Shown piece after piece: positions 39,492-62,973 of a stretch of 64,000 nt of DNA. How positions within the stretch are numbered: the stretch's first letter is position 1; each line of letters begins with the position of its first letter. Where the stretch lies: positions 558,001 to 622,000 of the forward strand of contig CP069394.1 in assembly GCA_016887485.1 (NCBI GenBank). Direction: 5' to 3'. Source of the DNA: Chloroflexota bacterium (GTDB taxonomy: Bacteria > Chloroflexota > Anaerolineae > Anaerolineales > Anaerolineaceae). The notes under the pieces are model-generated. The model saw only the letters and a program-made list of their open reading frames with translations. It made no database searches and had not been told where the DNA came from. The position numbers were made by a program, and so were the translations under genes.

Positions 39492-41378
39492 TTAAACGCC
39501 GATCTCTTCAGCGACATCTGCCATTCCCAAATCAACGAGGAGTTGTTTGGGAATCAGGCCTTCTTCAGTCCAGCCTTTGGCTTTGAAATATAGCTGTTTC
39601 ATATAATCTAATTCTTCATCTGTGACAACATGACCAGCTCCAGGACCCTTAGTCATTGGGTCGTGCTTCCACCGGTAGGGGATGTCGTCATCTTTTTCTG
39701 TCCACCCCTCTCGAATGTTAAAAGCTTTTTTGATTGTGTGAGCCCTAATTCCAATTAAGTCAACATCATCATAATCAAAATTCCAACCTGTTGTGGCATT
39801 GATTAGTTTAGCGATTGCCGGCCAGGCGCCTGCACGATCAGCTTTTCCTGTGAAGCAGCGTCGAATGAATTTGCACATCGGCAGCGAGTCATAAACAGCG
39901 GCATATTCTTCTGAACGAGACGCAACAACACCTCTGGTTTCATCAACGGTATAACGATTTGTTTCTCCTTTGATATCTGGATCATATGCAGCAGATCGAT
40001 TATGGCAACCCCCTCGTGTGCCAACGGCAAGACCCATCGCAAACGTTTTTAATGATCTTGCATCATAACCTGGGCATTCCAGTCCCTTAATATTCATTGC
40101 CCATTTCCAGGATTCGGAATTTCGTTCATTGTCGATTTTCTTCGACGCTATCCTGGTACCCTCTGCTAAAAGTTCGCCAATTCCTTCCTTGTCACGAATC
40201 AGTTCAGCTAATGTGACCCCGGCTTCTCCATTACCAAAACATGGCTCAAAACCATCCGGATATTTTTTGCATCGGAAATCATCTTTTTTCAATACACCGC
40301 GTTCAAAACATTCCATTGTATATGATATGGTGACTCCCATGCTCATGGTATCCATACCACTTCTATCAGAAATATCTACCATTCTAATGGCTGCGGTCAT
40401 ATCTCCAATACCACAGTTTGAACTTACTGCTTGCAAGCATTCATATTCAATGCCTGTCATTGAACCTGCAAATGGCCCTTTCTTAACCATCGACATTTGC
40501 TCACAAGCGATCGGACATTGCGCACAAGCGATGACTTTAACTTTATGATGCTCATCCAGGTATTCTCCGCTGACCAACTCTGCAAACTCAAATGTTCCTT
40601 CCTGATAATTTCGAGTTGGAAGGAATCCTTCCTTATTAGCATTGAGTACATTCGTTGAGGTTCCATAAATTCGATATTTCTCGGTGTTCTTACCCTGAGC
40701 TGCTTCAGTAATATCAAAGGACAATTTGAGCAGCGTATCGGGATCTGCAACGGTAACCCCATGAGTGCCGCGGAAGGAGACAGCCTTGAGTTTCTTGCTG
40801 CCCCAGACAGCGCCATGGCCTGTGCGGCCTGCCTGGCGTCCGTCGTTGGTGACATTGCCGAAGCGAACCATATTCTCGCCGGCTGGGCCGATGGTCGCAG
40901 AACGGATCTGATCATCGCCGAATTCTTCACGGATGGCTTCTTCGGTTTCATAAGTACCCAGACCGAGGAGGTTGTCCGCGGGCAGGAATTCCACGCGATC
41001 ATCATCAATGAAGACGTGGACCCATTTATCGCTGGTGTTATGGATGACCACACCATCCCATTGAGCACGTTTCATGGCGATGCACAGCCAGGAACCGGAT
41101 AGACTGTCGCCGATGAAACCTGTCAGGGGGGATTTGGAAGCCAAGCCATATTTCCCACCGACCGGAACCGGGGTGCCTGCGAATATGCCATTCGCGAAGC
41201 AAACCGGATTTCCCGGATCATAGGCATCGCAGCCGACTTCGATGTTCTCCCAACAAAGTCGTGTAGCCATTGCGACGCCGCCAATATAAAGCTTGTACCA
41301 ATCTTCTGGCTTGTCTTCGGCCCAATGTGTTCGTTCTTTTAGGTCGATGTGCAGAATTTTACCGCTGTAACCGTACAT
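39492..41378 (-). CDS. Tungsten-type aldehyde:ferredoxin oxidoreductase (AOR family)
   Basis: The 628-aa protein is full length for the family. The N-terminal domain has the pterin-binding stretches (GGVAMATRL, ASKSPLTG and TGHGAVWGSKKLKA). The cluster motif is Cys285-x2-Cys288-x3-Cys292 plus Cys502. It contains two metal-bound pterins by family rule and oxidises aldehydes to acids or the reverse. AOR-family relatives include the BamB subunit of class II benzoyl-CoA reductase, which also works with Hdr-like partners, so the true substrate is open. AGGAGAG lies eight bases before the ATG. It is the first gene of a nine-gene operon. Confidence 0.9.
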   Translation of the reverse strand: MYGYSGKILHIDLKERTHWAEDKPEDWYKLYIGGVAMATRLCWENIEVGCDAYDPGNPVCFANGIFAGTPVPVGGKYGLASKSPLTGFIGDSLSGSWLCIAMKRAQWDGVVIHNTSDKWVHVFIDDDRVEFLPADNLLGLGTYETEEAIREEFGDDQIRSATIGPAGENMVRFGNVTNDGRQAGRTGHGAVWGSKKLKAVSFRGTHGVTVADPDTLLKLSFDITEAAQGKNTEKYRIYGTSTNVLNANKEGFLPTRNYQEGTFEFAELVSGEYLDEHHKVKVIACAQCPIACEQMSMVKKGPFAGSMTGIEYECLQAVSSNCGIGDMTAAIRMVDISDRSGMDTMSMGVTISYTMECFERGVLKKDDFRCKKYPDGFEPCFGNGEAGVTLAELIRDKEGIGELLAEGTRIASKKIDNERNSESWKWAMNIKGLECPGYDARSLKTFAMGLAVGTRGGCHNRSAAYDPDIKGETNRYTVDETRGVVASRSEEYAAVYDSLPMCKFIRRCFTGKADRAGAWPAIAKLINATTGWNFDYDDVDLIGIRAHTIKKAFNIREGWTEKDDDIPYRWKHDPMTKGPGAGHVVTDEELDYMKQLYFKAKGWTEEGLIPKQLLVDLGMADVAEEIGV

Positions 41379-45053: not shown

Positions 45054-47539
45054 TATTTATTCTTCTTCGAGAAGCCCAAAACGACGATAACAATGATCAC
45101 CGCCAGAATGCCTAAGATGATGATGGGCAGAATGGAGGGAGATTCGTTATCAATTTCGTCAGGTGCTGCTTCAGTTGGTGCAATCTCTACAGTTTCGGTC
45201 TCAGTAGTCGGCTCATCAGTAGCTTCGATGGCGGGTTCATCGGTGGCATCGAATGGTTCGGCCGGCACAAAGCTGTCGGTGCTGTCGTTGTAGAGGTCGC
45301 TGTAGGCGAGGTTGGGCTCGATGCTGTAGTTTTTGAGGAGCTCGCCGCTCTCACAAATGGTGCTCAACACCGGCAGGGTGTCAGGCGGCAGGGAGGGGAA
45401 GATCTCCCAACTGGTGAAGTGCCAGGCCACAACGGAACCTGGCAGAACGACTGAATCTCCTGCGCCGGTGCTCTCGAATGCCCATTGTTGACCATCCCAG
45501 TACCAATAAGACCAGTAATTGGTCTCACCATCGGCATTGGTAATCCCCAGGATGCTATTGATAAATCCTTCGGCATTGTCATATTCAAAACCGGAAGAAT
45601 CCAGCAGGGTCAGGCCATCCATTGACTCCTCGCTCAACTGAACACAGGCGGATTGGGCCTCGCCATCGCCGGGATCAACGATGATCGCAGCGGTGTTTGT
45701 AGAGGTGGTATCCTCAGGTTGCATGATGAGGTCACCGCCAAAGAGGGCCAAAAGGGCGGATGCTGTTGACATCACGCTGTCATCGGAATATTCCCAGGAA
45801 TAGACGAAGGACCCATTGGCTTTTTGGTAGGACATCAGGCTGGTGAGTGGGCCTCTGGCACTGGCTGTCTGCCAATCTTCAATGGATTCACCCAGAGCAT
45901 TGAGCGCCATGACGACATAGGCAGTCGTGCTTGAATCACCCCAGCCGCCATCGTCTTCCTGGGTGTTATGGAGGTAGGCGACAGCAGCCTGGATAATCGG
46001 ATCTGATGTTAGATAGCCTGCGGCTAACAAGGCCTGAATTGCAAGAGAAGTATCCACTGGAGAGGATGAGACAAAGCCTGCACGGTATCTCCACCCTCCG
46101 TCTTCACGTTGTAAACTTGCCAGGGTTGAGATTGCACCGCTTGGAATTGAACTTCCTGCTGCTGCCAGCCCAAGGATGCTCATTGCTTGTTGCAAAGTAT
46201 CGTGTGGCTCGCCAAACGACTTTGTGGTTTCATTATAATTTTCCAGCAGTCGTTCGGGGAGGTTCACGCCAGCGAAATCTTCTGGGTCCTCGCCCAGGGC
46301 ATTAATGCCGAGAATTGCTACGCCAATGGAACCAGGTCCAGTCTCAAGATAGGTTTCCAGGTTGGCTATAAGATAATTTTGGGTGGAGGTGCCTTCTCTT
46401 TGGAGGGTGGCAGGCTGCCAGCCCGCAGCATCAAGCGCCATAATGACATCAATAGTTGTGCGAGCCGATTCCCATCCGCCAGCGGAATCCTGTGCGGCCA
46501 CAAGGAAATCAAAGGCCTCACTGGCCTGGACGAGGTCGCCAAGTCCATAGAGGGGCTGACCGGAAAGGCCCAGAAGGGCATCGGCTGTTGAATAGGCATT
46601 GCCGTAATCGCCGCCGATCAATCCACTTTCCTGTTGAAGAGCTTGCAGGGCTGAAATGGGATTGCCGCCTTCCAGCTGCCAGTTATTAGTCATGGGAAGG
46701 TCGCCAACTGCGGCAATCGCCTGGAGCATCGCACTGGTGGTGCTGGCGTTGGTTGTGGAATCCCATTCAGTCTGCCAGCCACCAACATCGTTCTGTTGGT
46801 CCTGCATGTAGGTGATGGCAGCTGTGATGGGCTCTGAGGTGTTGTCATAAAAACCGGTCGCTGCCAGAGCTAAGATGGCAACCGGCGTTGTGTCAAGATA
46901 GCTGCCGTAGCCATCATTCCAGCGGCCTTCGTCATCCTGGGCTTCGGCTAACCAGACTGCGGCCTCCGAAGGGATGGAGAAATTATTGGCGACCAGGCCC
47001 AAAATGGCCCAGAGCTGATCGGTGACATTGTCAACCGTTGCAGTGCCATAAATACCGGTGTTGAGATCGTATTGTTCATTGACCAGATAGAGCAGATCCG
47101 TTCCCTGGTCACCAAAATTGTGGGGATCAGCGTTAGCTGCGGCAATGGCTGTGAGCAACTGACCCGCACGGGCGACATTGAAGCCAGGGGTTTCGGTTGC
47201 TTCCTGGTTCACCCATTGGATACCCTCAGATGCGAGATAATCAATGGGGCTCAGGCCCTCAGAGCTGACCAGCCGGTCCTGGGTTGTATTGTTGGCAGCC
47301 ATTGCCAAAACAGCTCGCAAGGTTGCAGCAGCGCTGGAGGATTCATCAAACCACTGGATGCCGCCATCCGGATTGATCTGAGTGGATAAATAGTCGAATG
47401 CTGATTCAATGACTTTCTCCATCGAACTCTGGGCGGCAGCGGATGGAACAGGCGCTGCCATAACCGAAGAGATCGGCCTGGCTAACAAGCCAAGAATCAC
47501 AGCGAGGGTGAAAACAAAAGACGTAATCCGGGATTTCAT
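45053..47539 (-). CDS. Transcobalamin/intrinsic-factor-like surface protein (alpha-alpha barrel plus DUF4430)
   Basis: The 828-aa exported protein has a signal peptide. Residues about 40-615 form many prenyltransferase/squalene-cyclase-like alpha-alpha repeats (repeated DGGW, LQREDGGWRYRAG and GGWGDSSTTAYV type units). A DUF4430-like beta domain follows (about 625-720; LTLLDSSGFEY, NYWSYWYWDGQQW). A Thr/Glu-rich linker and one C-terminal membrane helix (about 800-823) end it. This is the domain plan of animal intrinsic factor and transcobalamin, with tandem barrels and a membrane anchor. It probably captures cobalamin or cobinamide at the cell surface for the ECF transporter encoded next. AAGGAG precedes the ATG. 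It is controlled by a cobalamin riboswitch. Confidence 0.82.
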   Translation of the reverse strand: MKSRITSFVFTLAVILGLLARPISSVMAAPVPSAAAQSSMEKVIESAFDYLSTQINPDGGIQWFDESSSAAATLRAVLAMAANNTTQDRLVSSEGLSPIDYLASEGIQWVNQEATETPGFNVARAGQLLTAIAAANADPHNFGDQGTDLLYLVNEQYDLNTGIYGTATVDNVTDQLWAILGLVANNFSIPSEAAVWLAEAQDDEGRWNDGYGSYLDTTPVAILALAATGFYDNTSEPITAAITYMQDQQNDVGGWQTEWDSTTNASTTSAMLQAIAAVGDLPMTNNWQLEGGNPISALQALQQESGLIGGDYGNAYSTADALLGLSGQPLYGLGDLVQASEAFDFLVAAQDSAGGWESARTTIDVIMALDAAGWQPATLQREGTSTQNYLIANLETYLETGPGSIGVAILGINALGEDPEDFAGVNLPERLLENYNETTKSFGEPHDTLQQAMSILGLAAAGSSIPSGAISTLASLQREDGGWRYRAGFVSSSPVDTSLAIQALLAAGYLTSDPIIQAAVAYLHNTQEDDGGWGDSSTTAYVVMALNALGESIEDWQTASARGPLTSLMSYQKANGSFVYSWEYSDDSVMSTASALLALFGGDLIMQPEDTTSTNTAAIIVDPGDGEAQSACVQLSEESMDGLTLLDSSGFEYDNAEGFINSILGITNADGETNYWSYWYWDGQQWAFESTGAGDSVVLPGSVVAWHFTSWEIFPSLPPDTLPVLSTICESGELLKNYSIEPNLAYSDLYNDSTDSFVPAEPFDATDEPAIEATDEPTTETETVEIAPTEAAPDEIDNESPSILPIIILGILAVIIVIVVLGFSKKNK

Positions 47540-47550
47540 TAACCAACTCC

Positions 47551-47587
47551 TTATTTAATAAAAATGACCTTACGGGAAAAGGTCATT
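47551..47587 (-). terminator. Attenuator hairpin of the cobalamin riboswitch
   Basis: AATGACCTT and AAGGTCATT form a 9-bp stem followed by a T-rich tract, just before the ribosome site of the transcobalamin-like gene. It should stop transcription when the ligand is bound. Confidence 0.75.
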
Positions 47588-47795
47588 AAACCAGTTCCGC
47601 CCAGATGGGCGGAAAGGGAAGTCGGCTGGTGTTGCGATAGCCGATACCCAACTTTCCTTTCCACGAAGTTTTTGGGTCATAAAGGGCGGGTTATCGGACT
47701 TCGCCAAATTGGCGTTACCGTTGCGGGACAGTGCTGGACTTGCACCAGCTTCCCCCCTTACGCACCTTGCATCCGGGCATAGGTGCACCCTTTAT
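47588..47795 (-). promoter_or_regulatory. Cobalamin riboswitch
   Basis: The minus strand has the cobalamin aptamer core: GCTGGTGCAAGTCCAGCAC, TCCCGCAACGGTAA and a B12-box-like AAGTCCGATAACCCGCC at 47685-47701. P1 pairs ATAAAGGG (47788-47795) with CCCTTTAT (47679-47686). Further hairpins lead to the attenuator. It regulates the transcobalamin-like protein and the ECF transporter genes. Confidence 0.92.
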
Positions 47796-47848
47796 GGCTT
47801 TTTCATTTGTAAAATTCATTCTAAATGGCGCAGAGTATTTTGTCAATA

Positions 47849-47903: not shown

Positions 47904-48323
47904 TTACTGAACCGTGATTGAAACCAGGTCCTTGACGTTCAGTTTGCCGGACATGTCGGGCATCACGGTGCGCAGGCTGCCTTCATCAAAACCAACAATA
48001 CAATTGGCGCAGGCCATCAGTTCTTCGACGGTGATGCTGGCTTCGTAACCATCAGCAGCGGTGAAGGTGACCTCTGTGCCGGAAGCAGCGCCAGCGTCTG
48101 AGAGAAGGGCGGAAAGCAGCACACCTTCATAGGTGGTGACAACGCCGTCTTTGCCGGTGTAGTCCACAGAAGTGGTGCCGAGGGCTTCGAGGCCGCTCTG
48201 GGTGTAGGAAGCTTCGTTTACGGTCAGGATGGCGGCTTCTTCGGTGGCCTGGGCTTGAGGGGTGCAGGCGGTGATCAGGGCGATCAAAACGAGCAGGGTT
48301 GTAATTAAGGTTGTCTTCTTCAT
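47904..48323 (-). CDS. Small lipoprotein with sulfite-oxidase-like (SUOX) fold, copy 1
   Basis: The 139-aa product has a lipoprotein signal (LITAC, Cys20) and one module like the oxidoreductase molybdopterin-binding domain: YEGVLLSALLSDAG, then VTFTAADGYEASIT and a C-terminal VKDLVSITVQ strand. The Cys that binds Mo in true sulfite oxidases is not evident. Two other Cys (MACANC) are close together. It is the last gene of the Moco-leader operon. The function is inferred as extracytoplasmic pterin binding; this is not shown. AAAGGA lies upstream of the ATG. Confidence 0.65.
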   Translation of the reverse strand: MKKTTLITTLLVLIALITACTPQAQATEEAAILTVNEASYTQSGLEALGTTSVDYTGKDGVVTTYEGVLLSALLSDAGAASGTEVTFTAADGYEASITVEELMACANCIVGFDEGSLRTVMPDMSGKLNVKDLVSITVQ

Positions 48324-48356
48324 GGTTATTCCTTTAAAAATACTTTGTTTTTTTTA

Positions 48357-48839
48357 TTACGGATTGACGATAATTTCCGTGATCTGGAACACCCAGCGAT
48401 TGGCGGGGGTGGTCGGGAAGACCAGGCGGATTGGGCCGGCATCCGGATCAGCTTCGGTGATCCATGCGCCGCCCTGCTTTATGGCAACAATGCCATTAAC
48501 CGCTTCGTCTTTGGAGATTTCGATGGCATAACCATCAGCAGCAATGGCTGTGAGGGTGCTGTAATCTGCAGGTGCACCGGCTTCTTCGAGTAAGGTTGCC
48601 AGATCAACGCCGCTGAATGAGCGGACTTCATCTTCGCCACGTGATTTTTCCATCAGGACGTCGTCCAGACTCACAAAATCCATAGCCGCCAGGTCTGCAT
48701 AGGAGAGGGTCAGGGGATTGGTGACCTCTCCACTAATTTTCAGGGTCCAATCGACATTAGGCACACTGTTGCACGCGGAGAGCAGCAATGGAATGACGAA
48801 GAGCAGGATCCAGGTAAATTTCTTGGTACTTTTTAACAT
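48357..48839 (-). CDS. Lipoprotein with sulfite-oxidase-like fold, copy 2
   Basis: The 160-aa product has a lipobox (LLSAC) and a better-kept SUOX-type domain: ISGEVTNPLTLSYADLAAM, SFSGVDLATLLEEAGA, LTAIAADGYAIEIS, and an ending with VFQITEIIV. In molybdopterin enzymes this region wraps the cofactor. It has no enzymatic partner here, so it may be a binding protein. AAGGAGGAAG precedes the ATG. It lies between the phosphodiesterase-like lipoprotein and the first SUOX copy. Confidence 0.7.
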   Translation of the reverse strand: MLKSTKKFTWILLFVIPLLLSACNSVPNVDWTLKISGEVTNPLTLSYADLAAMDFVSLDDVLMEKSRGEDEVRSFSGVDLATLLEEAGAPADYSTLTAIAADGYAIEISKDEAVNGIVAIKQGGAWITEADPDAGPIRLVFPTTPANRWVFQITEIIVNP

Positions 48840-48851
48840 TATTCTTCCTCC

Positions 48852-49982
48852 TTATTTTTGGATGAATGTAACAGGTATGAGCATATCAGCGGCTGTAAGC
48901 GTACCGTGGTTACCGCCATCTGCGGTTGTGTGCATGCCGTGATCGGCCAGAATGATGATGAGGGTGTCACTTGGTAACATATCAACAATATCGGCGATGT
49001 ATCCATCGACCCGGATCAGGGCAGTCTCGTATTCGGGTGAATTATCGCCATATTCATGACCCATGTCATCAATTTCATGGAAATGGATATACAGCAGGTG
49101 CGGCAGGTTATTCTGGATCACTTCCATTGCGTTCAGATAAACGTTGTCATCGGACCAGCCGTTATTATCCCGGTCTCCGCTTAGGATCACTTCAGCATTG
49201 CGAAGGTTGAAAGGCAGGCTGGCACCTTCAACCGCTATTGCCATTTTTCCGTTATCCGTGACGATATCAAATAGGGTGGTCAATTCTGTTGAGCGGTAGC
49301 CGTAGCCATAAACACCGTTATTGGCCGCAATGGTGCTGGTGAATAAAGCAGCCGAAGCGGATGTGGTAATTGGGGGGTAGATGCTTATGCCACAATTGAT
49401 CTTGTCCTGGCTGGCGAAGAAGGGCTGCTCTCCGGCAGCGACCATGGATTGGAGTTTGTCGTATTGAGTGCCATCCGTGAGGATGATGACCACCTGTTGG
49501 GCAGAAGTAGTGAGCTGGGGTTGGCCATGCGCTTCTGGCAAGCTGGGGAGACCCAGGGCTGACAAAACGGTTGGGCTGATGTCGAGAATCGAGAGATCAA
49601 CCCCCGACAGTCTCTTTGACGGAGTCACCTCAATCGAGGTGGGCTGATAGGCGACCTCACCGATGGTCAACGTGCCGTTGGGGGAGAGAGTGGTTTCTTC
49701 TGCAATCTCATCCCAGATGAAGGTCAGGGACTCGGTATTTTCCATGGTCAAAGTGATCTGGTCAATCAGGGTAAAGCCATTATCAAAGAAGAACTGACCG
49801 AGGGGGACGGTTTGGATCTCTTCGTCGGAGGTGTCGATGTAGAAGGCTACATTATCGGCCGTAATTGAGCTAACTGCGTCCGAGTTTTCATTGATGGTAA
49901 TCGCCCACGTCGCTTGGCATGCTGTGCCAATGAAAAGGAGCAGGATCAGTATGGGGAGGAGTAATTTCTTTCGTGTAGGCAT
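48852..49982 (-). CDS. Lipoprotein of the nucleotide pyrophosphatase/phosphodiesterase family
   Basis: The 376-aa product has a signal and lipobox-like IGTAC (Cys22). An N-terminal module of about 100 residues resembles the SUOX repeat (VPLGQFFFDNGF, LTFIWDEI). Then follows an alkaline-phosphatase-superfamily domain: ILTDGTQYDKL near 170, HFHEIDDMGHEYG near 300 and ILADHGMHTTADGGNHG near 350 supply metal Asp/His ligands. NPP enzymes cleave pyrophosphate bonds, including those in dinucleotide cofactors. In this operon that activity could release molybdopterin from its nucleotide form; that is inference. Confidence 0.72.
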   Translation of the reverse strand: MPTRKKLLLPILILLLFIGTACQATWAITINENSDAVSSITADNVAFYIDTSDEEIQTVPLGQFFFDNGFTLIDQITLTMENTESLTFIWDEIAEETTLSPNGTLTIGEVAYQPTSIEVTPSKRLSGVDLSILDISPTVLSALGLPSLPEAHGQPQLTTSAQQVVIILTDGTQYDKLQSMVAAGEQPFFASQDKINCGISIYPPITTSASAALFTSTIAANNGVYGYGYRSTELTTLFDIVTDNGKMAIAVEGASLPFNLRNAEVILSGDRDNNGWSDDNVYLNAMEVIQNNLPHLLYIHFHEIDDMGHEYGDNSPEYETALIRVDGYIADIVDMLPSDTLIIILADHGMHTTADGGNHGTLTAADMLIPVTFIQK

Positions 49983-49985
49983 AAA

Positions 49986-50903
49986 TTAATTCGATTCTAT
50001 TGAGGTGATATCCACCAGCCAGGCACTTCTGCCGCGGGCTGGCAGGACGAGGGTGATGGAGTCGTGATCCATGGCGAGGACAGCGCCTTCAATTTCATCA
50101 CCCGAAAGTTCAATGGTCTCACCGTGGCTATCGGTGACCGTGATGGACTCAGGGTTGGCGTTAACCAGCAGGGGAGCCAGCAGCGCACCTTCGATCCAAT
50201 TGGCGGTGGTGGCATGGCTCAGGTTGCCTTCATCATCCGCAAGCATCACATCGGTGCTTTCCACGGGCAGCCGGACGGTTGCACCGATCAAAAGGCGGCC
50301 AATAGAGGTTTTGTTGCTGTCAATGGTGAGTGGTGTATCGACACCCACGACAACAATCCGGGTGATGCCTTTCAGCCAGCTTGAAGCGTGAAGGGTTTCA
50401 GAGGCAAACCGAACACCGTCCACATAGGGCACCAACATGGCGGTTTCATCGATATATTCGGATTCGATTGTGGTTTCGCCGCCGTCATTGGTGATGAAGG
50501 TGACGGATTCATATTCTTCAACGCCGTTCTGGGCGAGTAAATCCTGCACTGTAATATGGGTGCCGGCATTTTCCTGATTGGGCAGGACCTCATTAATCCG
50601 GATGAAGGAAGGATCGGGGACATCGCCGGTCAGATCAATCACTGCATAGAACTGGATACCTGCCATTTCAACAGCGCCGTGATCATCGTGGCATGTCGTG
50701 CAGTCGTGGAATTCAGCGCCATCATGGCATTCTGCGCACTCGTTCATTTTGACGCCTTCTTCCCAGAGGGCGCCAAAGGAAAATTCCTTAATCAGAGCCA
50801 CTGGCATCGGTTTGGTTGTGATCAGGATCAGGACGATCACTGCCAGGGCCAATACAAGGCCGATGGCAAGAAAGAGTATCCAGGGTTTGGGTTTCGTCTC
50901 CAT
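49986..50903 (-). CDS. Membrane-anchored c-type haem protein with SUOX-like repeats
   Basis: The 305-aa protein has an N-terminal membrane helix (about 8-30), then two haem-binding motifs CAECH (56-60) and CTTCH (68-72). Two SUOX-type modules follow (about 80-190 and 200-305; GALLAPLLVNANPES, ITVTDSHGETIELSG). It is the only CxxCH protein in the window and would be matured by the CcmF-thioredoxin fusion at 28088. The role could be redox handling of a pterin cofactor outside the membrane, which is a guess. It is located directly after ecfT. Confidence 0.72.
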   Translation of the reverse strand: METKPKPWILFLAIGLVLALAVIVLILITTKPMPVALIKEFSFGALWEEGVKMNECAECHDGAEFHDCTTCHDDHGAVEMAGIQFYAVIDLTGDVPDPSFIRINEVLPNQENAGTHITVQDLLAQNGVEEYESVTFITNDGGETTIESEYIDETAMLVPYVDGVRFASETLHASSWLKGITRIVVVGVDTPLTIDSNKTSIGRLLIGATVRLPVESTDVMLADDEGNLSHATTANWIEGALLAPLLVNANPESITVTDSHGETIELSGDEIEGAVLAMDHDSITLVLPARGRSAWLVDITSIESN

Positions 50904-50908
50904 AGGGT

Positions 50909-51685
50909 TTATAGCCTTCCTCCATAGTTGACAACGAGAATGAATGTGGAAAGGGCTACCAATAAAAGATTGAAAATCAAGTCCCGATAACTCGGGATGA
51001 CTCGATTGCGAAATGTGCGGGTACGATATTGACCGAACCCACGGCCTTCCATACTGAAAACCAGCTTATCCGCCCTCCGAAGAGCGCTGATCAGCAATGG
51101 TGTCATGAATTGTCGCACAAGCAAGGGGATGCGTTTCAGGCTGCCCTGGTCATAACGTACACCTCGGACCAATTGGGCCTGATAGATCGTCTGGCCTTCA
51201 TCTTCGAGGATGGGTGCCAGGCGTAAGGCTGTGATCAGCATAAAACCGAAGCGATAGGGGAGACCGGCTTTCATCAGGGCGTAAGCCAGGTCCGAAGGGT
51301 TGGTGGTGATGATGAATAAATAACTCATTAGCACAATGGCGAGGAAGCGGCTGCTGAAAAGAAGGCCGGAATCGATGCCACTTTGTGTGATTTTGAAGTG
51401 TTTGATCCCAGGATCCCACAGCACAACTCCGGTCTTTTCAAATAAGAGGTAGACGACGAAGAGGAATATCCCAGTGAAAAAGACCAGCCTGAAACCGCGC
51501 ACTTTCCAAATTTGAGGACAGAGCCAGATCAGTGATATCAAGGCAAGAAGTGCTAGGAGAAAAGTCAGCAAGCCTTTGGTGACGATTAGCACCAAGGCGG
51601 AGAGTAATAAGAGCCAGATAAGTTTATCCAGAGGATAGAGCTGGTGGAAGAAGCTGTTGCCGGGTTGGAAGGTCAGTTTACGCAA
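50909..51685 (-). CDS. ECF transporter transmembrane protein EcfT, second system
   Basis: The 258-aa membrane protein has the EcfT coupling motifs (QLVRGVRYDQG and FSMEGRGFGQ). The start is a TTG at 51685, preceded by AGGAGG and overlapping the ATPase stop by 8 bases; the longer reading frame to 51739 lies within that gene. It belongs with the double ATPase and the S-component fusion encoded upstream. Confidence 0.87.
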   Translation of the reverse strand: MRKLTFQPGNSFFHQLYPLDKLIWLLLLSALVLIVTKGLLTFLLALLALISLIWLCPQIWKVRGFRLVFFTGIFLFVVYLLFEKTGVVLWDPGIKHFKITQSGIDSGLLFSSRFLAIVLMSYLFIITTNPSDLAYALMKAGLPYRFGFMLITALRLAPILEDEGQTIYQAQLVRGVRYDQGSLKRIPLLVRQFMTPLLISALRRADKLVFSMEGRGFGQYRTRTFRNRVIPSYRDLIFNLLLVALSTFILVVNYGGRL

Positions 51686-53183
51686 TTTGACCTCCTGCAA
51701 TGGTGTTGGGAATAAAGGCACCGTATCCCTGGGTGGCAATTACTTCGAAAGCTTTTGCGGTAGGTGCATTGACTTGAATCTCGCCCTGATTCATGAAAAT
51801 CACCCGGTCACAATAACGGTTGGTCAGTCCGGGGTGGTGATTGACCAGCAGGACGGTGTTGCCCTGTTCACAATAGGCTTTCAGGCGCTGCATCCATAAC
51901 CTGGCGTTCTCCAGGTCCTGCCCAATCAACATTTCATCAATAAGCAGGATTTTTGGGTCATGCAGGATGAGGCTGACCAAATTCAGACGCCGTTTTTCAC
52001 CGTAGCTCAGGCTTTGGGGGTGACGGTCCAACTCGCCTGCCAATCCCATTTTTACCAGCCATGACATTGCCTCGGCCTCTTTTTTCGGCGTTGAGAACCT
52101 GAGGTTTTCCAATGTGAAAAGGGCTTCTTCCCAGATGGAAGCAGTAAAAAGCTGGTGGTCGGGATTTTGGAAGATAAAACCTATCTTGCGCACCAGGTCG
52201 GATGTTTTAAGTTTGGAAAGGTCCTGTCCGAAGCCGAATTTTGATCCTCCCGTTGGCTGGATGAGTCCCATGATCGTCAGGAGCAGGCTGGTTTTGCCAC
52301 TGCCGTTCGGCCCCATCAGGCCGATGAACTCACCGGGATATAGGTCAAGATTGATGACGTTGAGAATAGTCTTGTCGTGAATGGACAGAGTGATATCTGA
52401 AAGTGAAAGCAGTGGCTCTTGAGTAGCCCCTGATTTGGGTGATAAGCTTTCCTGTTGTTGGGGTTCCAACTCAGTGGTCATCCTTTTCATGAAGGCGAGA
52501 ATGGATTCTTCTTCCTCAATTTTGCCCTGTTCCATGACAATCACCTGGGGATCCAGATCAACGATCTGCAGGAGTTTGTGTTCAATGATGATGATGGTGA
52601 GACCGTGTTGTTCGGCCAGCAGATGCAAAGTCTCAAATATCTGTCGGGTGGCATCCGGATCCAGGTTTGAAGTCGGTTCATCCAGAATGAGCACATCCGG
52701 AGAGAGGGCCAGCATGGAGGCAATCGCCACTTTTTGTTTTTCGCCACCGGAAAGTGTTGCCAGATCACGCTCCAAAAGGTCTATTCCGTGGACAACGGTT
52801 AGAGCCGATTGGATCGCTGTTTCGATATCCGCTGGGGTTACCTGGCGGTTTTCCAGGCCAAAGGCGATTTCATCCTTGACCGTCAGAGTGCAGAACTGAT
52901 CCTCGGGATTTTGTTGCACATATGCGACCCGTTCACTGGCGGCATATAGCGGCACCTGGGTCATATCGGTCTTATTGACCCAGATTTCGCCAGAGAAGTT
53001 GACTAAGTCATCCTGGAAGAGAAAGCCCGCAAGAGCTTTCGCCAGGGTGGACTTGCCGCATCCGGATTTTCCCGTGATGACCAGAAACTGACCCCGGTCA
53101 ACTTGCAGGTTAACACCTTCCAGGGCAGGTTGTTGCCTGCCCGGATAGGTGTAGGAAAAATCGCGGATTTCGATAAAAGCCAT
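51678..53183 (-). CDS. Double ECF transporter ATPase (EcfA-A' fusion), second system
   Basis: The 501-aa protein has two ABC domains: GKSGCGKSTLAKALAGF with LSGGEKQKVAIA and ILDEPTSNLDP, then GPNGSGKTSLLLTIMGL with LSYGEKRRLNL and a LIDEMLIGQD Walker B in which Met follows Glu. It is a diverged paralogue of the 41634-43232 ATPase. It starts three bases after the S-component stop and is coupled to EcfT by overlap. Confidence 0.92.
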   Translation of the reverse strand: MAFIEIRDFSYTYPGRQQPALEGVNLQVDRGQFLVITGKSGCGKSTLAKALAGFLFQDDLVNFSGEIWVNKTDMTQVPLYAASERVAYVQQNPEDQFCTLTVKDEIAFGLENRQVTPADIETAIQSALTVVHGIDLLERDLATLSGGEKQKVAIASMLALSPDVLILDEPTSNLDPDATRQIFETLHLLAEQHGLTIIIIEHKLLQIVDLDPQVIVMEQGKIEEEESILAFMKRMTTELEPQQQESLSPKSGATQEPLLSLSDITLSIHDKTILNVINLDLYPGEFIGLMGPNGSGKTSLLLTIMGLIQPTGGSKFGFGQDLSKLKTSDLVRKIGFIFQNPDHQLFTASIWEEALFTLENLRFSTPKKEAEAMSWLVKMGLAGELDRHPQSLSYGEKRRLNLVSLILHDPKILLIDEMLIGQDLENARLWMQRLKAYCEQGNTVLLVNHHPGLTNRYCDRVIFMNQGEIQVNAPTAKAFEVIATQGYGAFIPNTIAGGQIA

Positions 53184-53186
53184 AGC

Positions 53187-54563
53187 TTATTGAATGTCGA
53201 TTTGAGTGACAGGGAATAAGACGACATCACCGGACATCTTCGCCAGCGCATAAGAAATGCTGTCTTCACCGATAACAGTGAAGAGGCGGAAGTCATCGTT
53301 TTGGTCCAGTTCATCCCAACTGAAAGTGATCTCTTCATCGCTGTTGTTGAATTGGAGCTCAATGGGGGTTTGCCCGGGGAAGGCTGCAGTGACGATCTTC
53401 CAGACAGCAACGCCCTGGAGCTTCTCAGAACCGTCAGGGAGTGCGATCTGGGTGCTGTCCATTTCGAACAACCAATCATCTGAGACAAAGATATATTCGC
53501 TGCCATCAATACAATGGAAAACTAATTGATCGGAGGTAATCACCGTCAGCCGGGCCACACCGCGAATCCAGGCTTTGCTGCTTTCCGGGCCAACCACATC
53601 AAAGGTCGAGTTCTTGCCGGAACCGCTTTGGACGATCAAGATGTTGTCGTTGGTGTTAAGTTCATCAAAACTGAGCAGGAAAGCATAACCATCGGTTGCT
53701 TCGATCAATAAAGTGTCCGCGTCCGGATCCGGGTCAGCTGCGGCAATGATGGCTTTGAGGGGATAACCGGTGTATTCGGAGAGGACGCCCTTATATTCCA
53801 TCTGGAGGGTGGCTTTCTCAATTGTTACGTCCCTATCTGGGAACCCATAGGCTGCGGTCACCGTCCCATTGACGGAGATCTGTTCCGGCCCCTGAAGCTG
53901 AATTTTCAGGAAGACAGTCATCAGGATGGCAATAACAAAAACGCCAGACAGGACAGACCAGCCAATCCTGCGATTCTTCTGGGTGGGCTGTTCTGCCCGA
54001 ACCACACCGGCCTTTGTTAGGGATTTGATCAGAAGTGAGGGGATTACACCGGCAAAAACACAACCGGAGGCAAAGGCGACCACGAAGAGCAGCCCAATGG
54101 CAGAGGCAGCGAGTATATTGGAAGGCAGGGTTGCGAAGATCTGGAATACCAGAATGTTGGAGCCTGAGGCCAGTCCGCCTGCAACCAGATAGGGTAGGAG
54201 ATTGCGTTTGTTGCGGAAGATCAGGAAGCCGAAATCCACCAGCAAGCCTGCGACCAGATCAATCAAAAGGATGATGATCCCGTGGCTGTTACCGCTCATC
54301 AGCTCAACCGCACCTTTGAGGATGCCGGTCAGGGTGCCGGTTCCCGGTTTGCCGGTGATGGCAAAAGCAAGCACGATCCAGATCACATGTAAGCCTGCAG
54401 CCCATTGAGAGGCACCAGCAAAGCCCAGGATAGCCTGAACGGTATCACTGAGGGCATTGATATAGGTGCTGGCCACGCCGCCCAAGGCAGCCAGAACAGC
54501 CATGATGAGCAGGTCTCGGGTGGAGAAATAGAATTTATTCTTATTGGGACTTTGGGATTCCAA
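53187..54563 (-). CDS. ECF S component (YkoE-like) fused to extracytoplasmic SUOX-like repeats
   Basis: The 458-aa protein has a YkoE-like S component (about 10-205; STRDLLIMAVLAALGG and ITGKPGTGTLTGIL). A further membrane helix (about 215-235) leads to an outside region with two SUOX-type modules (GYPLKAIIAAADP, EATDGYAFLLSFDEL; then VAVWKIVTAAFPG). The transporter thus carries its own putative binding domain. The start is the TTG at 54563 with AAGGAG eight bases upstream; the reading frame further upstream is leader RNA. It is the first gene of the operon controlled by the structured leader. The substrate is unknown; a molybdopterin-type compound is proposed. Confidence 0.78.
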   Translation of the reverse strand: MESQSPNKNKFYFSTRDLLIMAVLAALGGVASTYINALSDTVQAILGFAGASQWAAGLHVIWIVLAFAITGKPGTGTLTGILKGAVELMSGNSHGIIILLIDLVAGLLVDFGFLIFRNKRNLLPYLVAGGLASGSNILVFQIFATLPSNILAASAIGLLFVVAFASGCVFAGVIPSLLIKSLTKAGVVRAEQPTQKNRRIGWSVLSGVFVIAILMTVFLKIQLQGPEQISVNGTVTAAYGFPDRDVTIEKATLQMEYKGVLSEYTGYPLKAIIAAADPDPDADTLLIEATDGYAFLLSFDELNTNDNILIVQSGSGKNSTFDVVGPESSKAWIRGVARLTVITSDQLVFHCIDGSEYIFVSDDWLFEMDSTQIALPDGSEKLQGVAVWKIVTAAFPGQTPIELQFNNSDEEITFSWDELDQNDDFRLFTVIGEDSISYALAKMSGDVVLFPVTQIDIQ

Positions 54564-54569
54564 CTCAAA

Positions 54570-54597
54570 CGCTCCTTCGCATTTCTGGAAAGGAGCG
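54570..54597 (-). promoter_or_regulatory. Ribosome-site-sequestering hairpin before the S component
   Basis: CGCTCCTT and AAGGAGCG form an 8-bp stem that buries the AAGGAG ribosome site of the TTG start at 54563. It lies just after the aptamer-like region, so ligand binding could switch translation. Confidence 0.7.
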
Positions 54598-54599
54598 GC

Positions 54600-54740
54600 T
54601 TTACATGACGCGCAAAATGGGATGGCGCGAGATGTTGACCATCTTCTTTCCAAACACGGGAGGCAAGGACGTTTCCATCCTTACCCTAACGGCCGGGATA
54701 CCATAGCATGGCTTTAGGTAGCGTGGCTCGAAGATGTGAT
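54600..54740 (-). promoter_or_regulatory. Structured leader, candidate Moco/Tuco riboswitch
   Basis: The minus strand contains GAGCCACGCTACC, a hairpin GCCAT-GCT-ATGGT, TCCCGGCCG, a stem-loop AAGGATG-GAAA-CGTCCTT with a GAAA tetraloop, then GCCTCCCGTGTTTGGAAAG. From memory this matches the layout and end sequence of the molybdenum/tungsten cofactor RNA motif; I could not run a covariance search. A TAGAAT (54758-54763) may be the -10 box. The genes downstream encode SUOX-fold proteins, which fits. Confidence 0.6.
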
Positions 54741-54808
54741 ATTTTTCTCTCGGGCTTATTCTAACATAAGGTTGAAAATGGATGTAGAGCAAGGGCTGGA
54801 TTAAACTG

Positions 54809-54902: not shown

Positions 54903-57542
54903 TTATCTTGATGTTGAGAATTTCACCAACTTTCCACGTTTATCAAAGGTCATCCGGGCGAAATGATGATGGGTTGTGTCCTGGTTTTCCTGGATGGACT
55001 TCTGGAGGGTGACGAAGTAGCGATCATCTTTGGTGGACTTGCTCTTTCCCTCAAATTGGCCCGCCTTGGAGGTGACAACCTTCATCTGGGCATTTTGCAG
55101 GCCAGGCAGGTATTTCTCGATCACTTCCTTGACGCCGGCTGAGACTTTCTTGGGCATCTCACCATTGGCGGATGTCGGAACGAGGTCGGAGTCGCTGATG
55201 GCTTTGACGGCTGGCTGCGATTTCACCCTGACCAGTTTGGTGGACTTGCTGTCACCTTCATAAGCTGCCAGTGGATCACCATAGAGGACGAAGGAGAGCA
55301 GGGTCTTCTGATCTTCACCATCCAGAAAGCCTTGTTTCTTGGTCATTTCCTGGGCAAAGGTCAGTTTGGCCCGCATAAGGGCGTAACCGACTGCATCACC
55401 TTCCAACACCTGTTTCCAATAAAGTTGTGCCAGGTAATCTGCGGCGATCAGCGGCATGGTGACGGAGCCATAGGCGATGCAGGTGGAGCCAATGAATGCC
55501 TTGGTGCCCATATCGAGGAATTTCAATGACATGGCCTCATCGTGCGCTTTTTCAGCGATGTTCGCCCCGTAGCAGGCTTCGGAGAACACGTATTTCGGTG
55601 AAGGTACATTCTCACTGAAAAGTTCCGGGCTGAGGGCGATGGGATAATCCGGCCCAGAGGAGTCGTTGGAGAAATCCTTCTGTCCGTACCAATTGGGGCC
55701 ATCCTGAGTGCCGTGGAGGTTGAAGTAACCCAGATCGGGACCGGTTTTCTTGGCTAATTGAATGTTCGCGGTGTTGGTGGGCGGTGAAAGCAGCAGGTTT
55801 CTGGCTTTACCGATGGTGTTGTAGACACCAGCGGATGCTTCCTGCCAGACCTCTGCTGAGAGCCCTAGTGTGGAATCGGTGCTGTTGGCGAGTCCAAAGA
55901 GTGCGAGCAGATTTTGGAGCCAACCGAACAGAGCGCTGAAGGACAGGTCAATGTTCAGACCCTTTTTGCTGCCTTTTTCGTAGCGATAGATCAATTGGCG
56001 GATTTGATAAAGCAACAGGCCGGCATCATTTCCAGCCTCACCGGGCAGGCGGCCAACTGGCCACTGCGGGATGAAGTAGTTATCATCGATGGTGCCATAA
56101 GGATTATCTGAGGCAACTTCCAGGTCATCATCCAGGGTTGGATTAGGCAGTTGGTGGAAGGGGATGATCTCAGGTCCGCCGACGATTAGCAGGGAGCCGA
56201 TCATTTCACCCTGGATTGCCAGGGCTTGATCAAGGTCAGCCAGGCTCAGCTTTACCTTCCAGGCATCCGTAGCAACGGTAGGTTTGATGCCCAGTTGAGA
56301 CAGGCTCGCAGGATCATCCGGATAGAAGACCCGGGCGTTCCAATCAGGCATGTTGCCGATCAGGCCGGCCAGTTCCTGCAGGAGGCCATCAATGACCTCA
56401 GCGGTGTTGGGACCATATTGGCTTTCCAATTGGGTTTTGGAACTCATGATGACATAGATTGGGAAGCGATTATCCGCCCGTTCCAGTTCCTTGTTCTTCA
56501 GCCGTTTTGCCAGACGATTGAAGACCTTTTGCACGTCCTCAAAATCTTCATCGGCGGCGGTGGGGGTCTTCGCGAACATTGGGTTGATCTCTTCCAAAGT
56601 CTTTTTAGCGATATCTTCCTCAGCCTCATCTACTTCGGTGATCACTGGTTTGGTCTTGTCCTGTTCTTCAATGCTCTCTACTGCAACCTGTTTGGCTTCA
56701 ACCGGGATCTCTTCCAGTTCAGGTTCGATTTCACCGCCCGAAGCCAGCTGATTCCAGCCTAAGGCATTGGCGACCGTTGCAGGGACAGCCAGATCAAAGT
56801 AGATTTCCATCTCATCCGGCCAGAGGTCCGCGAAGCGGTGGTTTTGACCCAGCAAGCGCTGAATCACCTGACCGGTGCTGTCATGCGCTGCCACCCAGTG
56901 CAAACGTTCGACGCCTTCTGATTCTTTGTCCTGGTTCATATCTGCCAGGGACTTGATAATGCTCACCTGGAGGCAGTTCGGCCATTGCTGGTAATAAATC
57001 TCAGAGAGATTAATGAGCAGCTCAGCGTTTTGTGATTTATAAGCTGCTTTGAGGTGCAAAATGGATGGCAGTGGGGAATCGGGTGATTTCAGGAGAGACT
57101 GATGCACCATTTGATTGGTCGTATCAAAGTCACCGGAAGAATAAGCCTTGCGGGCTTCCCATAGGGGGATCAACCACTCAAGGAATGCACCCTCGGGCTG
57201 GTTTTCTACGGTGAGGTAGCTGAGAATGGCCGCCCATTCCGCCTTCGCGTCTGTATTTGAGGAAATCTGGTTCAATGCCTGATAAGCTTCGATGAACTGA
57301 GGGTCCAATTCGACTAATGAGTTGAGGATCGAAACGGCCTGATCGATCATGCCCAGGTTGGCATAGTTCAGGGCCTGTTGGAATTGAACGTAGAGGTCTC
57401 CGGGGTAATTGACCAGCCAGAGCAAACAAGCCTGTTTGATGAATTGGTGTTCCTCGGCTTCTTTGGCGGCGTTCAGGATCGTCAGGAATTTATAGCGATC
57501 CAGGGCATTCAAATAATCCAGGGGTGATGTGGATTTTTGCAT
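54903..57542 (-). CDS. TPR protein with caspase-like (C25/gingipain-type) peptidase domain
   Basis: The 879-aa protein has TPR-like helices in residues 1-300. An acidic linker follows (about 265-320), then a peptidase C25-type domain (about 360-790). The catalytic pair is visible as YFNLHG (His610) and FSEACYGA (Cys657), each at the end of a beta strand. No signal peptide is present, so it would act in the cytoplasm, unlike gingipains. Bacterial caspase-like proteins with TPRs often belong to stress or conflict systems. It lies two bases after the 1797-aa TPR gene stop and is likely co-expressed. The target is unknown. Confidence 0.75.
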   Translation of the reverse strand: MQKSTSPLDYLNALDRYKFLTILNAAKEAEEHQFIKQACLLWLVNYPGDLYVQFQQALNYANLGMIDQAVSILNSLVELDPQFIEAYQALNQISSNTDAKAEWAAILSYLTVENQPEGAFLEWLIPLWEARKAYSSGDFDTTNQMVHQSLLKSPDSPLPSILHLKAAYKSQNAELLINLSEIYYQQWPNCLQVSIIKSLADMNQDKESEGVERLHWVAAHDSTGQVIQRLLGQNHRFADLWPDEMEIYFDLAVPATVANALGWNQLASGGEIEPELEEIPVEAKQVAVESIEEQDKTKPVITEVDEAEEDIAKKTLEEINPMFAKTPTAADEDFEDVQKVFNRLAKRLKNKELERADNRFPIYVIMSSKTQLESQYGPNTAEVIDGLLQELAGLIGNMPDWNARVFYPDDPASLSQLGIKPTVATDAWKVKLSLADLDQALAIQGEMIGSLLIVGGPEIIPFHQLPNPTLDDDLEVASDNPYGTIDDNYFIPQWPVGRLPGEAGNDAGLLLYQIRQLIYRYEKGSKKGLNIDLSFSALFGWLQNLLALFGLANSTDSTLGLSAEVWQEASAGVYNTIGKARNLLLSPPTNTANIQLAKKTGPDLGYFNLHGTQDGPNWYGQKDFSNDSSGPDYPIALSPELFSENVPSPKYVFSEACYGANIAEKAHDEAMSLKFLDMGTKAFIGSTCIAYGSVTMPLIAADYLAQLYWKQVLEGDAVGYALMRAKLTFAQEMTKKQGFLDGEDQKTLLSFVLYGDPLAAYEGDSKSTKLVRVKSQPAVKAISDSDLVPTSANGEMPKKVSAGVKEVIEKYLPGLQNAQMKVVTSKAGQFEGKSKSTKDDRYFVTLQKSIQENQDTTHHHFARMTFDKRGKLVKFSTSR

Positions 57543-57544
57543 GG

Positions 57545-60500
57545 TTATCTCGTCTCTCTAAGATTATTAATTAAGTTCATGGCGGTGATGACACCTAACT
57601 GACGGATGATCTCGGAATCATCGGGGGCCAGGGATTTGGCTTGTTTCAGCATGGCTTCGGCACCGGAGTAGTCTTTGCATTCCTTGAGCGCCATTGCGGA
57701 GTGATAGAAGGGCTTGGGATCATTGGGGTCAATTTCCGTCGCCTGGTGGAAGATCTTGATGGCTTCTTCCAGATTACGGCGATCCTGATAGGTCTTGCCC
57801 AGTTCAATATATGCTTCGACCAGAGCGGGATCGTGAACGATAGCATCTGAAAGATGGGCGATAGCCTGGTCCAGTTGACCGGTCTTGCGCTGCAGCCGGC
57901 CCAGCATCAAGTGCACACTGGCCTGTTCAGGGATGATCCGCAGGATGGTCTTGGCGGTCTTTTCCGCTTTTTCAAGCCGGTTGGTTTGGATCAGCCAGTC
58001 GGTCAGTTCTGTCAGGACTTCGGGATCTTCCGAATGAACCTCAGCGAGTTTGACGAGTTCCGGCAGGATCGCTTCGGTGCCTTCATAGGCTTTTTTGACC
58101 TTCAGGGCTTCTAGCTGCATCCGGGTGTTCTCGGGGTTCTTATCAAGGTATTGGTTGAGGACCAGGAGGGCCTGACCGAATTTCCCTTGTTTGGCAAGGG
58201 ACTGAGCCTGGATCACATTGGCGTCTTCATCCAGTGGGTTTTCTTCCAGAATATGGCTGGTTTTTTCCACGGCGCTGTCGTAATCCTTCTTGGTGAACAT
58301 CAACTGAGCCTCTTTGATCGCCAGGGATTTATTGGCGGGGTCCAGCTGTTGTGCGTTCTGAACGTTGCGGATAGCAGCGGTAAAATCACCCATCCGGCGG
58401 TTGACCTCAGCCAGTTTCAGCCAGGTATCGGCGTTCTGCGTTTTGAAGGAAACGCTCTTTTCAAGGTCGGCTTTGGCGTCCACCAGGTCATTGGAGACCA
58501 GACGAATTTCAGCGGATTGGAGCCAGAAATCAGCGTTATTGGGGTCAGCATCCAGAGCCTGCGAGATGTGGGCAGAGGCGTTGTTGGTGTTGCCGGTCTG
58601 CATCTCAAGTTCAGCGGCGTAAGCATACCAGGCTGATTCGGTGGGCCAGATCTGGAGGGCGGTGTCAATTGACTTGAGCGCCATCTCAGGATTGTCCTGA
58701 TTGAGGTAAGCTAACAGCGCATGGTTGCTGGCGTTCAGGGTGTCAAATTCGAGGGCTTTCTCGACCATTGGGATGGCATCCACTTTGTGATATTTCAGGG
58801 CGTTGAGACCATAAGCCTGCAGAACCTGAGGATCATTGGGATAGGTCTCTAGTGCCTGGCGGACGATTTCATCATCATCGCAGGACATCACCATTGCGGC
58901 TGCTGCATTCGGGCTCACCAGACAGGTTTCATAATTCAACATTAACTGCCATTCGCCTTCAAAGGCGGAAGCGCCGCGGGCTTTCAGGCATACCCAGTCA
59001 TTTTGATCGAGCGTATTTTTCACTTTCTCAATCAATATGTTGAACTGAGCCTGATTTGCGCCGCTCACGAATTCACTGCCAGGGGCATGGGCTGTGATGG
59101 AGAGGATTTCGACTTTGCGTTGTTCTTCAGCAGCGAGTGCCAGGCTGTTGGCATAACGCCAATTAGCCAGGGGCTGGTCGGGCAGGATGGCAGCGGCTTG
59201 CTGATAGAGTTTCACGGCGAGGGCCATATCCTTGAGATCCAGAGCGGCTTCAGCCATCCCAATCAAGGTCATCTGACGGCGGCTGATATTTGCCACGTTC
59301 ACCGATGGGGTAGCATTGGTGTTCTGGAAGAAGGCTTTATAAGCTTCATCCAGATAGGTGCGAGCTACTTCCAACTCACCCATCGAGGCGGCAATCCGGC
59401 TTTGCAGGGCCAGCAACCGGGGGTAGGTGACCAGTCCGGTCGTGAATTGCTGGGCCTGATCGAATGAGGGATTGGGAGATGTCAGGAAAGCCATCAACTC
59501 GGATTTCAAACAAGCGATGTCAATGCTGTCCTGGTCTTTTTGTTCGACATTCAGCTCACTCAGGAGGTCCAGCGCTGAATGGAAGGCCATATTTAGCGAC
59601 CGTGTTTCAGCGCAAGCTAAACGGATCTTCAAATTCTTAGGATTACGCTCCAGAGCCGCGTCCAAATGAGCGAGGGCTTTCTCGTTGTTTCCCAATGCAC
59701 GGTAGAGCTGCCCGAGGCGATAATCGTAACCAGCCATCGAGAAATCCACCGGGTAGAGGAGGGGGGATTTCGAATAGGCTTTCAGCCGGTCAACATTACT
59801 GTCCAATTTGGTTTCAGCAATCGATTCGATAAGCTGGAGGCTGGTCAGGGCTGGCTGATACTGGCCGAGATAATCCAGAATGTCCGCTTTGAGCAGCGCC
59901 AGTTCGGGATACTGGAGGATTGTTTCGACATCCAGGTCCAGAGTTGCCAGTGCTTCCCGGCGTTGGTTCTGGGATGTGTAGGCAGCGGCCAGGTCCATGA
60001 CCATCAGGGGGGAGAAGTTGCTGGCATTTTGGATGGCCTTTTCTAAGGCTTTGATTGCCAGATCGAAATTGTTCAACCGGATGCTCTGATAAGCAGCATC
60101 CTGGAGTTCCTCAGGGCTAACATCCGCACTGTTGATGACACTCATCAGTTTGTTTTCGGCGGCGTCCATTTCACCCAGTGCCAGATGAGCACGGGAGAGC
60201 CAGAGCTTCAATGCCGGTAGATTGGGCTGGAGGATCAGGGCTTCTTTGAGGGTTTTGACGGCCTCCTCAGGCTTGCCAGCATCCAACCGGAACTTGGCAT
60301 ACCAGAGAATGTTGTCGAGGTCCTGAGGGGCCAGTTTGAGGGCCAGGATGGCCGTGTCGCTGGCTTTGCCGTCCAATTCGGAAACCTGATAGGCCTTGGC
60401 CAGGGCGTGAAGGATGGTGGTGTTTTCGGGCTGCTGACCGGCAGCTTCCTGCAATGTGGCGACGGCCATTTCAACTTTGCCCATAGCCAGGGCGGTTTTA

Positions 60501-62938: not shown

Positions 62939-62973
62939 GATTAAATCCAATTCTCAGGTCAGGGTGGAACAAA

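Follow-up and report, generated by a model that had tools for sequence, protein, structure and literature searches.

What does an ECF transporter operon headed by a structured leader of Moco/Tuco type bring into the cell? The operon lies on the minus strand of the window (the whole 64,000-nucleotide stretch of DNA analysed here) and consists of a riboswitch and seven tightly packed genes, which extend from 54745 down to 47904 in the order S-A-T-haem-NPP-lipoB-lipoA (Table 1). With S (PF09819), T (PF02361) and A (two PF00005 stretches) subunits in one operon of conserved order it meets the definition of a group I ECF transporter, and these matches, together with fold models of S, bear out the transporter described in an earlier interpretation of the letters alone (the sequence-only reading), in which an ECF transporter with its S component fused to sulfite-oxidase-like modules was proposed to import a Mo/W-pterin. 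The answer that we favour, at a probability of about 0.72, is that this group I ECF system takes up the pyranopterin cofactor in finished form, with W as the most probable metal, and so replaces the moa, moe and tup genes.

The S gene starts at a TTG (54563) positioned 8 nt past the Shine-Dalgarno sequence AAGGAG, with the longest S reading frame opening at 54653. The listed EcfT frame overlaps the end of the ATPase gene, and the real EcfT start probably lies inside the 51739 frame. A W-dependent AOR had also been claimed nearby, and the AOR gene outside the operon, which has strong matches to both AOR families (Table 1), encodes a tungstopterin enzyme that is a likely consumer of the cofactor. 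Upstream on the minus strand (54903-62950) is a protein of 879 aa whose NLHG and SEACYGA motifs recall caspase-fold peptidases and for which an NCBIfam match was not found, beside a 1801-aa TPR protein.

Table 1. Features of the operon and the AOR gene outside it, with positions in the window.
Feature	Position	Strand	Evidence
Moco/Tuco riboswitch aptamer (RF01055), P3-less variant	54627..54745	-	77 bits vs gathering 36; alignment with P3 deleted
Expression-platform hairpin CGCTCCTT...AAGGAGCG	54570..54597	-	RNA fold -24.4 kcal/mol, z -2.55
ECF S component: YkoE type (6 TM) + seventh TM + two sulfite-oxidase/PruR-fold modules, inferred to be extracellular	53187..54563	-	PF09819 3e-20
Fused double ECF ATPase	51678..53183	-	PF00005, two stretches; TIGR04520 above cut-off
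EcfT/CbiQ-type transmembrane coupling subunit	50909..51739	-	PF02361 4e-35
Membrane-anchored c-type haem protein, two CxxCH, two PruR-like modules	49986..50903	-	motifs; hhalign
NPP: nucleotide pyrophosphatase/phosphodiesterase lipoprotein, N-terminal module-like domain	48852..49982	-	PF01663 1e-18
lipoB: lipoprotein, one sulfite-oxidase/PruR-type module, without Mo-ligating Cys	48357..48839	-	PF00174 4e-12
lipoA: lipoprotein, one short module, invariant CxxC (C105, C108)	47904..48323	-	PF00174 1e-6
Aldehyde:ferredoxin oxidoreductase (AOR), outside operon	39492..41378	-	PF01314 1e-102, PF02730 4e-66

The leader is a genuine Moco/Tuco riboswitch. In a covariance-model search of the 64-kb window it matched RF01055 over its full length (E 7e-17), far above the gathering cut-off, and no other RF01055 site occurs in the 2.9 Mb genome. 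The structured leader recognised by the sequence-only reading therefore passes the Moco model, except that its extent (54600-54740) was drawn too short, the aptamer running to 54745. Stem P3 is absent (the P3 model positions are deleted in the alignment) and the conserved core is kept. P3-less Moco/Tuco RNAs accompany tungsten-cofactor genes (Regulski et al., PMC2408646), and by this rule the leader is of the tungsten-cofactor (Tuco) subtype; ligand specificity has not been shown. Between the aptamer and the S gene, the Shine-Dalgarno sequence of S lies inside a hairpin predicted to be stable. Terminator-like hairpins, to which the window hairpin is similar, occur at the equivalent position in relatives, most of which have a GC-rich hairpin followed by T-rich sequence there. 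From the enclosed Shine-Dalgarno sequence and the GC-rich/T-rich hairpins of the relatives we infer that the riboswitch probably turns the operon off upon cofactor binding. A CCUUUCC in the leader hairpin faces a GGAAAGG of the aptamer in 13 of 22 leaders, a hint, restricted to those 13, of a possible anti-terminator pairing.

The arrangement is conserved across a wide range of Chloroflexota. Scanning of approximately 85,000 species genomes with an S alignment returned 26 loci, all from this phylum, and where contigs are long enough the S-A-T-haem-NPP-lipoB-lipoA order is mostly kept, down to 36% S identity. Of the 23 loci scanned, 20 have RF01055 directly 5' of S; the three loci outside that scan, L171, L173 and L176, duplicate the contigs of G200, G343 and G168, in which RF01055 is present, bringing the total to 23 of 26; no RF01055 match over the cut-off was found before S in L182, L184 and L185. 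At L187 lipoA and lipoB form a separate unit with a second RF01055 riboswitch of its own, and we count the riboswitch before this unit in favour of cofactor import.

The membrane part of S is assigned to the YkoE family on the basis of both its sequence (2.8e-14 against PDB 5edl) and its structure model, which aligns with YkoE (5edl) at a Z-score of 21.9 (rmsd 2.8 over 178 residues). A seventh helix should place both modules outside the cell, although this topology is inferred. The first module of the S model matches the SoxCD sulfite dehydrogenase (2xts, Z 13.8) and PruR with neopterin (Z 13.1), and in Foldseek comparisons the S modules are sulfite-oxidase/PruR domains and not some unrelated fold. 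Profile-profile comparison (hhalign) links lipoB, lipoA, S module 1, S module 2 and haem module 2 mutually, each to at least one other, at probabilities of 96-99% (96.6-96.8% for haem module 2), while haem module 1 reaches 62% against lipoB. By these profiles the module is clearly shared by four operon proteins. The sequence-only reading had counted five; the N-terminal domain of NPP, tried as the fifth, reaches only 77% (against S module 2), is not covered by the fold-match list, and was left as merely suggestive.

The modules resemble PruR and lack the cysteine that holds Mo in a molybdoenzyme. PruR (7kos, E 6e-4) is the top match of lipoB by sequence in the whole PDB. The only conserved Cys of lipoB belongs to the lipobox, none was found in the S modules, and the invariant CxxC of lipoA sits elsewhere than the Mo-ligating Cys, so that lipoB and the S modules lack the residue that defines a PF00174 molybdoenzyme. 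What lipoB and the S module do share with the PruR type is a secreted sulfite-oxidase fold devoid of the Mo-ligating Cys; there are no data on pterin binding. The DcpA/DTB regulator gene of PruR systems is absent from the operon. A DGY motif contains a tyrosine that is conserved without exception in lipoB (Y104) and S module 1 (Y293), and almost so in lipoA (Y93). Y104 of lipoB aligns in sequence with a tyrosine of PruR that should be its pterin-contacting Tyr104, the numbering being inferred from that of the chain. PruR is a Cys-less periplasmic pterin-binding protein whose pocket, according to its description, probably cannot accommodate Moco (PMC13259868), hence the modules could bind smaller pterins, which we count as a point against cofactor import. 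YkoE itself is an HMP/thiamine transporter, a second such point. Taken with the binding of monapterin and neopterin by PruR, the YkoE-family membrane part of S would allow the operon to import thiamine/HMP or another small pterin, with a Moco riboswitch present only by coincidence. We consider this highly improbable, given that RF01055 is retained in 23 of the 26 loci over large distances, stands also before the lipoprotein unit of L187, and that the operon tracks the loss of MoaA and MoeA described below.

The remaining two surface proteins carry recognizable functional residues. The NPP model aligns with Xac NPP at a Z-score of 21.1, and residues D170, T206, D305, H309, D347, H348 and H359 of its active site are invariant in 18 sequences. 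We take these to be the metal ligands and Thr nucleophile known from Xac NPP, and with them the protein meets the definition of the NPP/alkaline phosphatase superfamily; cleavage of dinucleotides is inferred from the family. Of 22 haem protein sequences, 19 have two CxxCH motifs and three, from L187, L193 and L194, a single one; the operons of these three contain an inserted iron-sulfur/cytochrome-b-like membrane protein. From this insert we infer that electron flow to the haem protein seems to matter.

If the operon is a scavenging system, genomes that carry it should manage without cofactor synthesis. The operon S gene is present in 10 of 16 genomes of the window's genus, and profile models for MoaA, MoeA and TupA found none of the three in any of these ten, whereas nine of them have an AOR (the tenth is 71% complete). 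The operon-free relatives G420 and G423 of the same genus have MoaA, MoeA, TupA and AOR, with a moeA-moeA-moaC-moaA-MOSC-mogA-tupABC cluster in G420 (names read from the sequence, except for the model-matched MoaA and MoeA). Paired archaeal-type MoeA in B. fermentans (Brevefilum) is in line with G420 (PMC11733289, PMC5481317). Genus g248 shows the same pattern, with G496 set against G494 and G497. In genus g255, G506 and G510 have the operon only, and G507-G509 have both the operon and MoaA/MoeA, a coexistence that is a further point against cofactor import. Genera g1, g248 and g255 are placed apart in the S tree, which makes at least three separate replacements of synthesis by the operon likely.

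The association extends to the family. Among AOR-bearing Anaerolineaceae, MoaA and MoeA are both missing from 13 of 16 operon genomes versus 9 of 96 operon-free genomes (Fisher P 6e-9, uncorrected for kinship, which inflates the figure), the co-occurrence with missing moa/moe genes that the sequence-only reading had proposed to survey. The nine genomes that have an AOR but neither MoaA, MoeA nor the operon, six of them less than 90% complete, are also counted against cofactor import. Tungsten-type AORs occur in 16 of 17 operon genomes of Anaerolineaceae, so that the operon does reside in genomes with Mo/W enzymes. PF00384 was tried as a further marker of Mo enzymes, and its sole match in operon genomes of the genus is a NuoG-like gene and not a molybdoenzyme (3764-5659, E 3e-26; judged NuoG-like from its size and its NuoF/NuoE-sized neighbours). 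No true DMSO-reductase-family enzyme (PF00384) was found in the operon genomes of the window's genus, leaving the AORs as the only Mo/W enzymes found in them.

Many of these genomes are drafts (66-98% completeness), which raises the concern that MoaA and MoeA only seem absent, through gaps in the assemblies or because homologues are too divergent to be recognised. The concern is sharpened by MoaE (PF02391), which was discarded as a marker of synthesis because it was missing, with few exceptions, from the small family genomes searched, carriers of MoaA and MoeA among them. An artefact is nevertheless very hard to sustain: MoaA, MoeA and TupA are all missing from seven operon genomes of the genus with a completeness of 92% or more, while the same models give E-values of 1e-29 to 1e-187 in sister genomes. 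As a separate observation, MoaE (PF02391) was not detected in G420, G423, G494, G497, G355 and others despite the presence of MoaA and MoeA, and the large subunit of molybdopterin synthase seems to be replaced or very divergent in part of the family.

The set of genes lost bears on the form of the imported molecule. With MoaA missing the pterin part must come from outside, and the modules resemble PruR, a binder of metal-free pterins; the operon could for this reason import metal-free molybdopterin or a precursor (cPMP), to which W would be added inside the cell by an unknown MoeA-independent step. We hold this to be unlikely, though it deserves to be kept in mind, as MoeA and TupA have gone along with MoaA, a joint loss that favours import of the complete cofactor over its rivals, and the P3-less riboswitch is of the tungsten-cofactor type (PMC2408646). 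That the metal is present in the imported molecule remains an inference.

The wider distribution of the riboswitch and the modules bears on whether the metal alone is imported. RF01055 is present in 53 of 400 Chloroflexota genomes, where its other targets include moaA, tup/mod genes, AORs and FmdE genes. RF01055 also precedes ECF operons whose S component is of another kind, at least two in number (L036, 5517-10568; L058, 2194-6129), both with a THEP1-like NTPase; the S component of L058 has no Pfam match and the L036 operon includes FmdE. Their hosts keep MoaA and MoeA, thus these operons may import something else. At L094 (G338:C22), the neighbours of RF01055 sites are very large secreted proteins of 891 and 937 aa in which DGY-type modules are repeated. 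L065, L066 and L095 each combine RF01055 with a downstream lipoprotein that contains one or two PruR-like modules, after which comes an ABC importer of WtpABC-like or FecBCD type; L095 also has a gene for a molybdenum-storage-like kinase in the vicinity (gene names near these importers were assigned by reading the sequences). PruR-like modules thereby appear to act as a general surface component in Mo/W supply.

Mo/W transporters are a frequent target of Moco riboswitches, and module lipoproteins precede WtpABC-like/FecBCD-type transporters under RF01055 in Dehalococcoidia-like genomes. In L180 (7165-11713) the operon continues with a further S component, unrelated to the first, with TupB- and TupC-like genes, and with a fusion of TupA to a lipoA-type module (PF12849 + PF00174). 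We count this extension among the evidence for cofactor import, yet the fusion is also a point against it, since the modules could handle tungstate and not pterin. Such observations would suit import of tungstate/molybdate or a chelate, the modules serving as oxyanion-handling accessories. For the present operon this is improbable: MoaA and MoeA are missing from all ten operon genomes of the genus, and metal alone could not become cofactor there; YkoE-type S components take organic vitamins (PDB 5edl); and the modules have the PruR/SUOX fold, not an oxyanion-binding one. For the other systems, in which the modules stand beside other Mo/W transporters, transport of tungstate remains a live explanation.

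Import of the finished cofactor, as the sequence-only reading had suspected, is supported by the riboswitch identity, the module folds, the presence of AOR and the loss of MoaA and MoeA; ligand binding is inferred, and the lack of any binding or transport data is a point against it. The proteins suggest how uptake might proceed. Cys-less modules on the lipoproteins and the S ectodomain would catch cofactor outside the membrane, released from dead or lysed neighbour cells, and the surface NPP would probably trim dinucleotide forms (MGD/MCD). W-type AORs carry their cofactor without a nucleotide, which fits such trimming. The c-haem protein would probably supply electrons and keep the pterin or its metal reduced, while the YkoE-type S, its own T and the fused A subunits would pump the cofactor into the cell for insertion into AOR-type enzymes. 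An ample cofactor pool, sensed by the riboswitch, may then lead to shut-off of the operon.

Several parts of this system have known counterparts from which they also depart. The S transmembrane fold, the fused ATPase and the T subunit in the operon are as in YkoE-type group I ECF transporters (B. subtilis YkoEDC), whereas the window S carries two predicted extracellular pterin-fold modules, the operon adds a haem protein, NPP and two module lipoproteins, and control is by a Moco/Tuco and not a thiamine riboswitch. lipoB shares with PruR (7kos, 7rkb) a stand-alone secreted sulfite-oxidase fold without Mo-ligating Cys and the aligned DGY tyrosine; PruR, unlike the operon modules, signals to a c-di-GMP enzyme and has no link to a transporter, riboswitch or Mo/W enzyme. 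The aptamer, with its high score and P3-less form, is like the Moco/Tuco RNAs at tungsten-cofactor genes but differs in its target, as an ECF transporter operon under this RNA was not found in the literature searched. TupABC, ModABC and WtpABC likewise supply Mo/W under riboswitches of this class, with a TupA-module fusion in L180, yet they need MoaA and MoeA downstream, which the operon genomes of the genus lack together with TupA.

An architectural parallel is the adjacent locus downstream (41634-47807, minus strand), where a toroid + DUF4430 protein, resembling intrinsic factor/transcobalamin in its build, is followed by ECF S, T and a fused ATPase. Both loci combine a cofactor riboswitch, a surface capture protein and an ECF pump; the neighbour differs in having a cobalamin riboswitch (47668-47807) at its head and the toroid + DUF4430 capture protein. 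In L171, L173, L174, L176 and L191, too, the Moco operon has a cobalamin ECF operon after it.

The Mo/W cofactor is generally held to be too labile to share, each organism making its own. C. elegans can take it up from its diet (PMC9793310), but no ECF or other bacterial importer of a Mo/W pterin cofactor was found in the literature searched. The operon probably imports the W/Mo pterin cofactor intact and would then be the first bacterial system known to do so, one that would let whole lineages live as auxotrophs on the cofactor of other cells by a redox-linked, PruR-like surface capture. A dedicated importer, if confirmed, would imply trade in this cofactor among the members of anaerobic communities, as with B12, account for genomes that have tungsten enzymes but no synthesis genes, and offer a handle on how the Mo/W cofactor is moved across membranes.
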